Below are positions 51,776 through 56,508 of a stretch of DNA of 64,000 nt, piece by piece (within the stretch, counting starts at the first letter, position 1; each line of letters starts with the position of its first letter). This DNA comes from Myceligenerans pegani (GTDB lineage Bacteria; Actinomycetota; Actinomycetes; Actinomycetales; Cellulomonadaceae). Under the pieces are notes generated by a model. It saw only the letters and a program-made list of their open reading frames with translations, was not told the origin of the DNA and searched no databases. The DNA lies in contig NZ_JADBGR010000104.1 in assembly GCF_014892515.1 (NCBI RefSeq), positions 109,826 to 173,825 on the forward strand, in the 5' to 3' direction. A program made the position numbers and the translations under genes.

Positions 51776-52519
51776 GTGAACGTCTCCCCGCCTTCCGTGC
51801 CCGCCGAGCTGACGCCCGTTGCGCAGGACTACCTCAAGGCGGTCTGGTCCGAGCAGGAGTGGTCCACCAAGAAGGTCACCTCCAAACAGCTCTCGGACCG
51901 GCTCGGGGTCGGGGCCTCCACGGTGTCCGAGACGGTTCGCCGGCTCTGCGACCAGGGCCTCCTCGACCACGCGCCGTACGGGGCGGTGGAGCTGACCGAG
52001 TCCGGGCGGCGGCTCGCGCTGCAGATGGTGCGGCGCCACCGGCTGCTCGAGACGTTCCTGGTCAACGAACTCGGCTACGGCTGGGACGAGGTGCACGACG
52101 AGGCCGAGATCCTCGAGCACGCCGTGAGCGACCTGCTGGTCGAACGGCTCGACGCGCGGCTCGGCCGCCCCGGCCGCGACCCGCACGGCGACCCGATCCC
52201 GGCCGCCGACGGGACCGTGGTGCGGCCGGCGGCCGTGCCCATGTCGGAGATGGGGGCCGGGGAGTCCGGCGTCGTCGTACGGATCTCGGATGCCGACCCG
52301 GATGCCCTGCGGTACCTCGACGAGATCGGACTGGGACTCGACGCGCGGGTCTCGGTGACGACGCGGCGCGAGTTCGCGGGAACGCTCCACGTGGCCTGGG
52401 CGTCGCCCACCGAGGCGCCCGACGACGGCGGACGTGGCGCGGCGGGCGCCGGGCCCGTGGCGGGCTCCACGGACCTGGGCCTCCTGGCCGCCTCCCGGGT
52501 CTGGGTCCACCGGGAATGA
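51776..52519 (+). CDS. DtxR-family metalloregulator, MntR-like
   Basis: 247 residues: winged HTH (ALTSKQLSDRLGVGASTVSETVRRL region), dimerisation domain with metal sites, and a C-terminal FeoA/SH3-like domain. Readable metal ligands are D18, H88, E92, H107, E111, E114 and H115. Asp at the DtxR Met10 position and Glu at the Cys102 position are the manganese-type (MntR) choices. It should repress Mn uptake or activate efflux when Mn is high. TAGGCT sits six bases before the GTG, so it is probably leaderless. Confidence 0.85.
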   Translation: MNVSPPSVPAELTPVAQDYLKAVWSEQEWSTKKVTSKQLSDRLGVGASTVSETVRRLCDQGLLDHAPYGAVELTESGRRLALQMVRRHRLLETFLVNELGYGWDEVHDEAEILEHAVSDLLVERLDARLGRPGRDPHGDPIPAADGTVVRPAAVPMSEMGAGESGVVVRISDADPDALRYLDEIGLGLDARVSVTTRREFAGTLHVAWASPTEAPDDGGRGAAGAGPVAGSTDLGLLAASRVWVHRE

Positions 52520-52564
52520 CGACTCTCTCAGCGGGGGTCCAGGGTCGGACGGTATGTTGATTTT

Positions 52565-53209
52565 GTGAACGAGAAGACCGTGACGGCCGTGGCGTCGTCG
52601 GACGATGTTGTCGCGCCCGCCGGCCCGAAGCCGCTTCGCGAGCGGACGATGGCGCTCCTGCTCCTGGCGCTGGGTGCGATCGGGTTCGCCGCCTCGTTCG
52701 CGCTGGCGTGGGAGAAGTACCTGGCGTTCGTCGAGCCGGACCGCGCCGCGTCGTGCACGCTCAACCTGTTCGTCACGTGCAGCGCCGCCATGGAGTCGTG
52801 GCAGGGCGCGCTGCTCGGCTTCCCGAACCCCTACCTCGGCGTCGCGGCCTTCCCCGTGGTGGTCACCACCGGCGTCGTGCTGTTGACCGGGGCGCGGCTG
52901 CCGCGGTGGTACTGGACGTCCCTGCTGGTCGGGACGGTGCTGGGGCAGGCGCTCGTGTTCTTCCTGATGTGGACGAGCTTCTACGCGATCGTGGCGCTGT
53001 GCCCGTACTGCATGGTCGTGTGGACGATCATGTGGCCGCTGCTGTGGTACCAGATCGTGCGCGGGGCGCAGACCGGGGACCTGCCGATGGGCGCCGGGCT
53101 GCGGGACGCGCTGGTCGCGAACCGCACGATCATCCTCGTCATCGGCTACGTGGCCGCGGTGGGCTGGCTCCTGCTGGCCGTGGGCGCCGACCTCGTCCGC
53201 TCCTTCTGA
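52565..53209 (+). CDS. Vitamin K epoxide reductase (VKOR) family protein
   Basis: 214 residues with about five membrane helices. The redox centre C146-P-Y-C149 and the loop pair C64/C72 match bacterial VKOR, which reoxidises extracytoplasmic DsbA-like proteins using quinone. No DsbA domain is fused. TATGTT ends six bases before the GTG, so the message looks leaderless. A hairpin follows the stop. Confidence 0.9.
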   Translation: MNEKTVTAVASSDDVVAPAGPKPLRERTMALLLLALGAIGFAASFALAWEKYLAFVEPDRAASCTLNLFVTCSAAMESWQGALLGFPNPYLGVAAFPVVVTTGVVLLTGARLPRWYWTSLLVGTVLGQALVFFLMWTSFYAIVALCPYCMVVWTIMWPLLWYQIVRGAQTGDLPMGAGLRDALVANRTIILVIGYVAAVGWLLLAVGADLVRSF

Positions 53210-53217
53210 CCTTCTGA

Positions 53218-53255
53218 GCGGTCGGCCGCTTGTCGCTCGGCAACCGGCCGACCGC
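53218..53255. terminator. Palindrome after VKOR gene (GGTCGG family)
   Basis: GCGGTCGGCCG and its exact complement flank 16 bases. Positions 53220-53236 read GGTCGGCCGCTTGTCGC, which recurs exactly on the other strand at 57906-57922. Likely the VKOR terminator and also a member of a small dispersed repeat family. Confidence 0.55.
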
Positions 53256-53259
53256 ATGG

Positions 53260-53288
53260 TTGCCGCGTTCCCCTGCGCCTGGCATCCT
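53260..53288 (+). promoter_or_regulatory. Possible leuS leader promoter TTGCCG-N17-CATCCT
   Basis: A modest -35/-10 pair with 17-bp spacing. The start of transcription would fall at or next to the GTG of the Leu-rich leader peptide at 53295. Confidence 0.4.
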
Positions 53289-53294
53289 GGATGC

Positions 53295-53324
53295 GTGAGG
53301 TCCATCCGCTCGCTGCTTATGTAG
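53295..53324 (+). CDS. Candidate leuS leader peptide (VRSIRSLLM)
   Basis: Nine codons then TAG. Two adjacent leucine codons, CTG-CTT, lie three codons before the stop; CTT is rare in this genome. It starts where the putative promoter would begin transcription, so it could be a leaderless mini-gene. Two hairpins and a U-run follow before leuS, the layout of a classical attenuator in which a ribosome stalled on Leu codons alters the folding downstream. The antiterminator pairing is not resolved by eye. Confidence 0.6.
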
Positions 53325-53401
53325 CCGCACCGGCTCCGCCCATGATCGGGCACACCCGGTGCGGCCGCCCCCGTGCGCTCCTCGGAGCGCGGGGGCTTTT
53401 T
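53324..53401 (+). terminator. Attenuator hairpins and intrinsic terminator upstream of leuS
   Basis: Hairpin 1 pairs 53324-53333 with 53356-53365 (GCCGCACCGG with CCGGTGCGGC). The second is a terminator: CCCCCG and CGCTC of 53368-53380 pair with GAGCG and CGGGGG of 53385-53395, followed by TTTTT (53397-53401). It is the clearest intrinsic terminator in the window and lies 38 bp before the leuS ATG, so it must be regulated rather than constitutive. Confidence 0.72.
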
Positions 53402-53439
53402 CGTGCCCGGAACCCGATCTCGCAGATGGAGCCGCGACC

Positions 53440-56400
53440 ATGACCGACACGATGTCCTCCGGTGCCGCCGAGAGCCCGCCGAGCCCGGTCACCGGCCGGG
53501 TGCCCTCCGACCGCGGACCGGTGACGAGCCCGATCACCGGCCGGCCCGGGTCCGAGCCCGGCTCGGTCGGTAGAATCCCGCGGGTGACGACCCCCGCCGC
53601 TGAACGCACCACGAGCACGCCCGAAGGCCCCCGCTACCGCTACACCCCGGAACTCGCGCAGGAGATCGAGCTGCGCTGGCAGGACCGGTGGGAGGAGCGC
53701 GGCACGTTCCACGCCGCGAACCCGTCGGGCGAGCTGACGGGGCCGGACGGCGCGCACGCCTCGGGCAGCCCGTACTTCATCATGGACATGTTCCCGTACC
53801 CGTCGGGGGCGGGCCTGCACGTCGGGCACCCGCTGGGTTTCATCGCCACCGACGTGGTGGGCCGGTTCCGGCGCATGTGCGGCGACAACGTGCTGCACAC
53901 CATGGGCTTCGACGCCTTCGGCCTGCCCGCCGAGCAGTACGCCGTCGCCACGGGCGAGCACCCCCGCGGGGTCACCGAGCGGAACATGGTCACCTACCGG
54001 CGCCAGCTGCGCCGCGCCGGCCTGGCGCACGACCAGCGCCGCACCTTCGCCACGATCGACCCCGGGTACGTCCGCTGGACCCAGTGGATCTTCCTGCAGA
54101 TCTTCGAGTCCTGGTACGACGCCGACAGCGGGCGTGCCCGCCGCATCTCCGAGCTGCGCGACGAGCTGGCCGCCGGCACCCGTCCCGTGCCCGGGCACGA
54201 CGGCGACAACACCGGCGGCGCGATCTGGGCAGCCCTGAGCGAGGCCGAGCGTCGCGACGTCGTCGACGCCCAGCGGCTGGCCTACGTCGACTCCTCGCCC
54301 GTGAACTGGTGCCCGGGCCTGGGCACGGTGCTGGCGAACGAGGAGGTCACGAGCGAGGGCCGGTCCGAGCGCGGCAACTTCCCGGTGTTCACCAAGAACC
54401 TGCGCCAGTGGAAGATGCGCATCACGGCGTACGCGGACCGCCTGATCGACGACCTGGAGCTGATCGACTGGCCGGACAAGGTCAAGACGATGCAGCGCAA
54501 CTGGATCGGCCGGTCGCACGGCGCGCACGTGCGGTTCGACGTCGTCGGCACGGCCGACAACGACGCCGCGGGCGCGGGCGAGGAGATCGAGGTCTTCACC
54601 ACCCGCCCCGACACGCTGTTCGGCGCGACGTTCATGGTGGTCGCGCCCGAGCACCCGCTGCTGGACGAGGTCCCGGTCGCCTGGCCCGACGGCACCAAGA
54701 GCGTCTGGACCGGCGGGCACGAGAGCCCGGCGGCGGCCGTGGCCGCGTACCGCAAGGAGGCGTCGGGCAAGAGCGCCGTCGAGCGCCAGGCCGACGCCGG
54801 CAAGAAGACCGGCGTCTTCACGGGCCACCTGGCCGTGAACCCCGTGAACGGCACGCACATCCCGGTCTTCACCGCGGACTACGTCCTGATGGGGTACGGC
54901 ACCGGCGCGATCATGGCCGTTCCGGGTGGCGACGAGCGTGACCACGACTTCGCGCGTGCGTACGACCTGCCGGTGATCTACACCGTCGCGCCCGAGGGCG
55001 GCCTGCCCGACGACTTCGAGGGCGCGTACTCCGGTGAGGGCGTCGCGATCAACTCGTCCAACGACGAGCTGAGCCTGGACGGGCTGGGTGTCGACGAGGC
55101 CAAGGCCCGCATCATCGCCTGGCTCAGCGAGAACGGCGTCGGGCAGGGCACCACCACGTACCGCCTGAACGACTGGCTGTTCTCCCGGCAGCGGTACTGG
55201 GGCGAGCCGTTCCCCGTCGTGTGGGACGAGGACGACCGGCCGGTCGCCGTCCCGGACAGCATGCTGCCCGTCGACCTGCCCGACGTGCCGGACTACGCGC
55301 CGCGCACCTTCGAGCCCGACGACGTGCACTCCGAGCCCGAGGCGCCCCTGGGCCGCAACGAGGACTGGGTGAACGTGACCCTGGACCTGGGCGACGGCCC
55401 GAGGCGGTACCGGCGCGACACGAACACCATGCCGAACTGGGCGGGCTCGTGCTGGTACTACCTGCGCTACCTGGACCCGTCGGACACCGAGCACGCCGTC
55501 GACCCCGAGCTGGAGAAGTACTGGATGGGGCCGAGGCACAACGCGACGTCGGGCGTCGCGGGCGGCGTCGACCTGTACGTCGGCGGCGTGGAGCACGCCG
55601 TGCTGCACCTGCTGTACGCGCGGTTCTGGCACAAGGTCCTGTTCGACCTGGGCTACGTGTCGAGCCTGGAGCCGTTCGGCCGGCTGTTCAACCAGGGCTA
55701 CATCCAGGCGTACGCGTACACGGACTCCCGCGGGGCGTACGTGCCTGCCGAGGAGGTCGAGGGCGATGAGCAGACCGGCTTCACCTGGCAGGGGCAGCCG
55801 GTCAACCGGGAGTACGGGAAGATCGGCAAGTCGCTGAAGAACGTCGTCTCGCCGGACGACATGTACGAGGCCTACGGCGCCGACACCTTCCGCGTCTACG
55901 AGATGTCGATGGGCCCGCTGGACCAGTCGCGGCCGTGGAACACGCGCGACGTCGTCGGCTCGCAGCGGTTCCTGCAGCGGCTGTGGCGCAACGTCGTGTC
56001 CGAGGAGACCGGTGAGGTCACCGTGACCGACGACGCCCCCGACGCCGCCACCCTGCGCGTGCTGCACCGCACCATCGCGGACGTGCGCACCGAGATGGAG
56101 GGCATGCGCCCCAATACGGCCATCGCGAAGTTGATCACGCTGAACAACCACCTGACGGGGCTGGACAGCGTGCCGCGCGCGGCGGTGGAGCCACTGGTCC
56201 TGATGACGGCGCCCGTGGCGCCGCACATCGCCGAGGAGCTGTGGGAGAAGCTGGGGCACACCGAGTCCCTGGCCCACGAGCCCTTCCCGGAGGCGGACGA
56301 GACGTACCTGGTGGCCGAGACCGTGACCTGCGTGGTCCAGGTCCAGGGCAAGGTGCGGGCCAAGATGGAGGTCTCGCCGGACGTCTCCGACGAGGACCTG

Positions 56401-56508
56401 GAGGCGGCCGCCCTGGCGGAGCCGAACGTGGTCCGTTTCCTGGACGGCCGCGGGGTGCGGAAGGTGATCGTCCGGGCGCCGAAGCTGGTCAACATCGTGC
56501 CGGCCTGA
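53440..56508 (+). CDS. leuS: Leucyl-tRNA synthetase
   Basis: 1022 residues from the ATG at 53440 (GGAG eight bases upstream). Class I signatures are H127-VGH-130 (HIGH) and K-I-G-K-S near 794-798 (KMSKS). The CP1 editing domain lies between, with [21 protein letters not shown] and [16 protein letters not shown]. The first 48 residues are not part of the enzyme core. An in-frame GTG at 53584 preceded by a good -10 (TAGAAT) could give a shorter, leaderless form. Preceded by a leader peptide and terminator. Confidence 0.95.
53571..53586 (+). promoter_or_regulatory. Internal leaderless promoter/start within leuS
   Basis: TAGAAT (53571-53576) is followed after seven bases by an in-frame GTG (53584-53586) just before the conserved synthetase core. 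It would bypass the upstream terminator. No clear -35 box. Confidence 0.4.

Follow-up and report, generated by a model that had tools for sequence, protein, structure and literature searches.

Leader-peptide control of leuS, the gene of leucyl-tRNA synthetase, is a described feature of Streptomyces. Attenuators were predicted upstream of leuS in Streptomyces avermitilis and S. coelicolor (Seliverstov et al. 2005, PMC1262725), and in 2021 S. lividans TK24 was reported to have a leaderless leader peptide, LeuL2 (MRAVRLLLSEPR), before leuS, accompanied by a hairpin and a U-run (PMC8079986). The basic switch is, as such, already in print for Streptomyces leuS. In a stretch of 64,000 nt from Myceligenerans pegani (contig NZ_JADBGR010000104.1, forward strand; the whole stretch analysed is called the window, and position 1 is its first letter), leuS is preceded by a unit of the same build. 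Judged by sequence comparison, this unit is homologous to the Streptomyces leuS attenuator, and it probably works as a leucine-codon leader-peptide transcription attenuator on a promoter, P1, placed in series with a leaderless promoter, P2, of leuS itself. The family to which the window belongs, which we take to be the GTDB family Cellulomonadaceae, is referred to below simply as the family.

Like the Streptomyces leuS attenuators of PMC1262725, the window has a Leu-codon leader frame, a candidate antiterminator hairpin and an intrinsic terminator ahead of leuS, but its adjacent Leu codons are two, while the Streptomyces loci have three. Leaders of the LeuL2 type align with the window unit and share with it the hairpin and the U-run; they differ in that the window leader ends early (SLLM) and that a leaderless leuS promoter box lies behind its terminator. 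As far as consulted, PMC1262725 names a leuS attenuator for two species only and mentions neither a second promoter nor a second leuS. A further likeness is found in the ilvB leaders (PMC1262725; M. tuberculosis ilvB1, PMC13236596), with a short reading frame containing branched-chain codons, a hairpin and a terminator, although they precede another gene and carry mixed codons; moreover, a mutually exclusive antiterminator is described for M. tuberculosis ilvB1 (PMC13236596), whereas none was found in the window. The literature also describes the LEU element of leuA, a pseudoknot pairing Leu codons with the Shine-Dalgarno site (PMC1262725), premature terminators, that of hisS among them (PMC2965389), and the small RNAs of Corynebacterium (PMC4046766).

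The elements of the unit are the following:
53260..53288, + strand: putative promoter P1, recognised by eye (TTGCCG 53260-53265, 17 nt, CATCCT 53283-53288)
53295..53324, + strand: leader peptide VRSIRSLLM (GTG 53295-53297, then AGG TCC ATC CGC TCG CTG CTT ATG, TAG 53322-53324)
53324..53365, + strand: hairpin A (53324-53333 paired with 53356-53365; the 22-nt loop contains an inner GCCC/GGGC stem)
53367..53401, + strand: intrinsic terminator (stem 53367-53376 with 53387-53396; U-run TTTTT 53397-53401)

An earlier reading made from the letters alone, called here the sequence-only reading, had given the sequence and the coordinates of the nine-codon frame 53295-53324 correctly, together with its adjacent CTG (53313) and CTT (53316) codons. 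It had also described two hairpins, the second being a terminator with TTTTT at 53397-53401, 38 nt before the ATG at 53440, and folding bore this out. The 5' arm of hairpin A (53324-53333) starts at the last base of the leader stop codon, and a single unpaired base separates hairpin A from the terminator. Specifically, the segment 53290-53440 (151 nt) folds at -78.6 kcal/mol, compared to -64.28 kcal/mol (standard deviation 4.32) for shuffled sequences, none of which reached so low a value (0/200, z -3.31), and a terminator pattern scan of 52500-54500 gave 5 sites where shuffles lead one to expect 0.5; three of the 5 are registers of the leader terminator hairpin. Upstream, the CATCCT box lies 6 nt from the leader GTG, a position that fits a leaderless start; box and distance to the start codon are kept in all four genomes compared from the window's genus, and TACGGT takes the place of the box in G029, a genome of another genus.

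To compare the unit with leaders of other actinobacteria we used a covariance model, R2, built from alignment A4, which holds 19 leuS leaders from outside the window's family. When every position of the window was scored, R2 matched 53295-53401 exactly, with 45.7 bits and an E-value of 5.8e-10, the runner-up having 14.2 bits; over the whole 5.87-Mb genome the same segment was the sole significant match (E-value 5.3e-8), two others standing at about 0.3. These E-values are rough, since they come from short calibrations. T-boxes control tRNA synthetase genes by tRNA charging. No Rfam family reached its gathering score anywhere in the 64-kb window, so that a T-box, of which the sequence-only reading had also seen no motifs, is rejected; in its place stands a leader reading frame.

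The same sequence-only reading had proposed, as a check, an alignment of the leuS upstream regions of relatives, and in such alignments the Leu codons are conserved (a CTnCTT block in A1 and A2) and the hairpins covary (A2 and A4). A2 consists of 27 rows, family members among them: nine are new, and 18 come from A1, whose 25 rows were taken over except for L017, L020, L028, L037, L042, L075 and L085. L026 and L134 are in neither alignment. Across A2, 95.6% of the cells are paired, with changes on both sides in 8 of the 16 pairs (36 cells), a figure matched by 0/500 shuffles; in A4, free of any family member, 95.7% are paired, with two-sided changes again in 8/16 pairs (15 cells, reached by 0/500 shuffles). 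For hairpin A alone the values are 97.4% in A2 and 96.3% in A4, with two-sided changes in 6 of the 10 pairs in both. Stems slid along the alignments as controls scored lower than the real ones in both tests, in which, it should be noted, related rows are counted many times. In addition, the spacing of the two hairpins is nearly fixed: the gap from hairpin A to the C-run of the terminator measures 2 nt in 23/27 leaders and 1-3 nt in all 27, and the loop of hairpin A ranges from 9 to 55 nt. On this comparative evidence, leader, hairpin A and terminator are conserved, with covarying stems, in leuS leaders across actinobacteria.

Among the 80 named loci retrieved with LeuS, 59 have a leader of the same build before leuS; an automatic rule recognised 54 of these, and five were added by eye (L016, L020, L026, L037 and L075; the U-run is poor in L020, L026 and L037). 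All 37 loci titled Streptomyces have it, as MRAVRLLL[ST]xPR or close forms, and other forms are VTRRLLLARPC in Geodermatophilaceae, MAGVFLLLTGPC in Micromonospora, VRGLLLLIGPR in Jiangella and VTRRLLLMQPR... in Brachybacterium. The window leader corresponds to this common leader with an early stop, TAG standing where longer forms read CAG. Within the window's genus the peptide is VRSIRSLLM in G000 and G001 and MRSIRSLLM in G002; that of G029, MSRIRSLLIQPR, is close to the Streptantibioticus form MRAVRLLLIQPR. In a class-wide draw of 394 genomes from 138 genera, a second model, R1, which includes rows from the window's family, matched 176 genomes and 75 genera at E-values up to 0.001; this count was taken irrespective of nearness to leuS, and R1 also matches ilvB leaders. 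Two or three model matches per genome were seen in G294, G389, G492, G540, G446 and others of this draw.

Downstream of the terminator, the following features were mapped:
53428..53442, + strand: Shine-Dalgarno-like GGAG (53428-53431) and ATG 53440, the proposed start of a long LeuS made from P1 readthrough
53571..53586, + strand: predicted leaderless promoter P2 with the shared leuS start (TAGAAT 53571-53576, 7 nt, GTG 53584)
53584..56508, + strand: leuS1, leucyl-tRNA synthetase, from the shared start; the one full-strength match in the genome

Over its N-terminal part, which served as the query, the leuS1 product is 81% identical to that of Isoptericola sp. The sequence-only reading had placed the leuS start at ATG 53440; an in-frame ATG with GGAG is indeed present there, but the start common to relatives is GTG 53584. 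A TANNNT box followed by 6-8 nt and an in-frame GTG was found in 30/30 family leuS1 loci tested (L081 and L085-L113), compared to 0.4% of base-shuffled controls. By eye, 25 of these 30 loci are without attenuator, and no R1 match adjoins leuS1 in their genomes. The argument of the sequence-only reading that a terminator ahead of an essential gene must be conditional does not hold, as the P2 box follows the terminator and leuS may therefore not be entirely dependent on the attenuator. For the same reason, transcripts starting downstream of 53401 are expected because of P2 and would not refute the attenuator, contrary to what that reading had set down.

The distance from the terminator U-run to ATG 53440 is 38 nt, and from this ATG the frame runs into leuS1. 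In G000, G001, G002, G003 and G029, the five genomes with an attenuator at leuS1, the extension from ATG to GTG measures 48, 48, 32, 22 and 20 codons, respectively, always in frame and stop-free, which suggests that P1 transcripts could give a longer LeuS. The extension 53440-53583 carries the near repeats SPVTGR and SPITGR.

We propose that the RNA from P1 would start at GTG 53295 and be translated at once, being leaderless. With enough Leu-tRNA, the ribosome would get to TAG 53322 and cover the 5' arm of hairpin A at 53324-53333 (a ribosome extends roughly 12 nt beyond the first base of its A site); with the arm covered, the terminator would form and P1 transcripts would end at about 53401. 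When Leu-tRNA is short, the ribosome would wait at CTG 53313, most of the 5' arm would be free, and hairpin A would form against the base of the terminator, letting the polymerase read through into leuS and giving the longer LeuS from ATG 53440. P2 would supply basal LeuS from GTG 53584 regardless of the state of the attenuator. While leader, hairpins, covariation, Streptomyces homology, P2 box and in-frame ATG emerge from sequence and comparison, we infer from them that ribosomes stall at the Leu codons, that hairpin A brings about antitermination, that P1 and P2 are both active and that the long protein is made.

Several points weigh against this mechanism. Constrained folding of 12 sequences in three states (no ribosome, a ribosome on the first Leu codon, a ribosome on the stop) gave no mutually exclusive antiterminator, and an overlapping one, which the sequence-only reading had looked to folding to supply, is rejected. 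The terminator was present in the stalled state in 12/12 sequences (probability 1.00) and in the stopped state in 11/12 (0.88 or more); L045 loses it in the stopped state, the opposite of what is expected, and at equilibrium hairpin A and the terminator form together. The -10 box of P1 is non-consensus, and P1 was not called by a strict sigma-70 scan. The adjacent Leu codons are two, against three in Streptomyces, and the leader is missing from 21 of the 80 named loci, the closest LeuS relatives included (L001-L007, L009-L014, L027, L033, L039, L050, L059, L066, L077 and L079). In S. coelicolor, codon changes in the ilvB leader were without effect, and leuA results are at odds with classical attenuation (PMC1262725). 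The contact between the two hairpins, a gap of 1-3 nt, is conserved and no overlap was found, and we therefore propose that hairpin A would block the terminator by lying directly against its base, either within the RNA exit channel or at it. All together, of the leuS leader-peptide attenuation put forward by the sequence-only reading, the build, the homology found with R2, the covariation and the Streptomyces precedent support the identity of the unit, which we hold with high confidence, but the switch itself lacks a mutually exclusive antiterminator in folding and is held with moderate confidence; the history of the unit is held with lower confidence.

Elsewhere in the family the unit stands before a different gene. 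A strict pattern scan found it in 10 of 221 family genomes, and R1 at E-values up to 0.01 gave matches in 48 of them; the strict-pattern matches in G235 and G237 were taken as chance, the surrounding DNA giving no LeuS match, and so were the model matches in G103 and G066, which sit in apparent coding sequence. Both searches showed the unit before a divergent second leuS (leuS2), 38-48% identical to the window LeuS in three cases. At E-values up to 1e-50, leuS2 was found in 37 genomes, and in 36 of them an R1 match lies just upstream of it, the exception being G024; 15 of these 36 leaders, all from genus g8, are matches with weak E-values. The window's genus and G029 have no leuS2 and carry the attenuator before leuS1. 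Twelve R1 matches do not adjoin leuS2: four from the window's genus and one from G029, all at leuS1, those of G162 and G202, three ilvB leaders by eye and two chance-like ones. As for gene neighbourhoods, leuS1 occupies one locus with common neighbours in the five genomes compared; leuS2 lies at another locus, with common neighbours in G005, G222, G033 and G009 and none clear at the G204 and G034 loci.

Inspection covered 29 of the 43 leuS-type family leaders (23 of the 36 on leuS2, five on leuS1, and G202; G162 was outside it). Some family leaders depart from the common build. The G009 leuS2 leader (L135, L177) has its Leu codons replaced by the end of an apparent transposase reading frame, with hairpin A and terminator remaining. 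A leuS leader in G162 (L184) has no leuS found behind it, and that in G202 (L189) precedes an apparent internally deleted leuS2. The g8 leuS2 leaders looked at (L134, L191, and those of G170 and G176, L183 and L182, respectively) keep leader and hairpin A and have no U-run; control in g8 may follow another route.

A gene of the same strand ends a short distance before the unit:
52565..53209, + strand: upstream membrane-protein gene, ending 85 nt before the leader

By eye, we take it to be vitamin K epoxide reductase-like. Directly after it, at 53220-53253, lies an inverted repeat, GGTCGGCCG / CGGCCGACC, without a U-run. Given a same-strand gene ending at 53209 and a P2 box downstream of the terminator in 30/30 family leuS1 loci, hairpin and U-run might be the ordinary terminator of this gene, with leuS transcribed from P2 only and the small frame incidental. 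However, a similar gene lies directly before leuS1 in attenuator-free relatives, e.g. L001 and L093, where no hairpins accompany it (by eye), the whole unit including the leader also stands before leuS2 at another locus, and R2 finds the unit by scoring leader, hairpin A and terminator jointly. We consider this explanation very unlikely, and reject it because the terminator does not go with the similar gene in L001 and L093.

The intact P2 box also bears on the idea that the unit is a relic before leuS1 which controls nothing, P2 doing everything. The leader stops early in three of the four species of the window's genus, and decay is seen elsewhere in the family, in the missing gene of G162, the gene remnant of G202, the replaced codons of G009 and the g8 leaders without U-run. 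Yet all four species of the genus keep the Leu codons, hairpin A, the terminator, the Shine-Dalgarno-like site with its ATG, and the frame, with pairwise identities of 91.6-96.3% from leader to terminator, and the early stop occurs at the same place in the leuS2 leaders of g7. A relic is, on balance, unlikely.

Another feature of these leaders is a complementarity between two segments:
53344..53353, + strand: loop segment GATCGGGCAC of hairpin A, complementary to the region just after the terminator
53403..53419, + strand: segment GTGCCCGGAACCCGATC behind the terminator, complementary to the hairpin A loop

This complementarity is seen in the family on both leuS1 and leuS2 leaders. The loop GGCAC and the GTGCCC behind the U-run do not change in any of the 26 A3 rows, i.e. 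the 29 inspected leaders without G170, G176 and G209, and an invariant core gives no covariation. The pattern GGGNNTTTTTCGTGNCC behind a T-run has a single occurrence in the genome, at the leuS leader, and the segment is thus rejected as a common terminator feature. Such a conserved pairing could point to translational control, with the loop of hairpin A pairing with the region before ATG 53440 and hiding the Shine-Dalgarno site. In a comparison of 18 sequences, the second segment of g21 paired with its own partner at -31.0 kcal/mol, compared to -20.9 to -23.6 kcal/mol with the partners of other groups, and covariation of the loop pairing is found in g21 alone. Against this, in each of the remaining seven of eight groups a segment taken from another group forms a better pair than the group's own, the g8 duplex is no better than shuffled, and the invariant segment is silent on covariation. 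Moreover, the Shine-Dalgarno site was predicted to be more accessible in the stalled than in the stopped state in only 8 of 26 sequences (G009, G170 and G176 left out), on which ground translational control through the loop is rejected; we regard it as extremely improbable.

Returning to the attenuator in series with P2, its presence at two different genes raises the matter of its history. From leader to terminator, the window's genus is 78% identical to the g7 leuS2 leaders, 77% to that of G005 leuS2 and 76% to that of G029 leuS1. In the leuS1 protein tree, the attenuator label needs two changes, but it may have had a single origin on leuS1. A reading that fits is that the unit moved between leuS genes, presumably from leuS2 to leuS1, with loss of leuS2. 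Alternatively, an old attenuator of leuS1 may have disappeared from most family members, exchange having taken place between the two gene copies. Outside the family, too, leaders occur on both leuS types. Some findings count against a movement within the family: the leader of the genus shares only 60-62% identity with those of leuS2 type in g21, g23 and G202, a likeness that does not exceed the one to the nearest leaders outside the family (49-65%), and among the 12 family matches not beside leuS2 three are ilvB leaders and two are chance-like. The evidence for a common source inside the family therefore comes from g7, G005 and G029.

On this basis, leuS1 would be the basal gene of the family and leuS2, where present, the attenuated one, the leuS1 of the window's genus carrying the attenuator where leuS2 is missing. 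We tentatively extend this to a portable attenuator module, which stood before leuS2 and which, in the window's genus, stands before leuS1 ahead of the old promoter; one gene would then give a basal short and a leucine-responsive longer enzyme, replacing a gene pair, and the hairpin abutting the terminator would act by steric exclusion instead of overlapping pairs. The 60-62% identities to leaders of its own family lower our estimate of this extended reading to somewhat less than an even chance. If it is true, a regulatory RNA changes its gene and keeps its physiological logic, in which the enzyme has a basal and a leucine-responsive source. Between hairpin A and terminator, the fixed gap of 1-3 nt further poses the question of whether a hairpin can stop a terminator merely by abutting it.

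In the literature found, we met no report that such a leader occurs on leuS genes of both types in many actinobacteria, that it precedes the one or the other of two leuS genes within a single family, or that it is coupled with a second promoter and start codon. A full-text search on two leucyl-tRNA synthetases or leuS2 gave no title on the subject, most subscription journals being outside its reach, and one on leuS leaders and attenuation, in mostly open full text, gave only PMC1262725 and PMC8079986, which is weak evidence of absence. In conclusion, the unit is real and belongs by homology to a known kind of leuS attenuator; its setting is a variant one, with a second promoter, nested starts and an apparent change of gene within the family.

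Finally, R1 also matches apparent ilvB leaders (by eye) in G082, G185 and G192. The ilvB leaders recognised by eye at L185, L186 and L190 read VQTILVVLLPGRAD and MATTFLVLIRRAG and are followed by a similar hairpin and terminator, and L190 has in addition a CGTGTCCGGGCCCGATC segment after the U-run, as found in leuS leaders.

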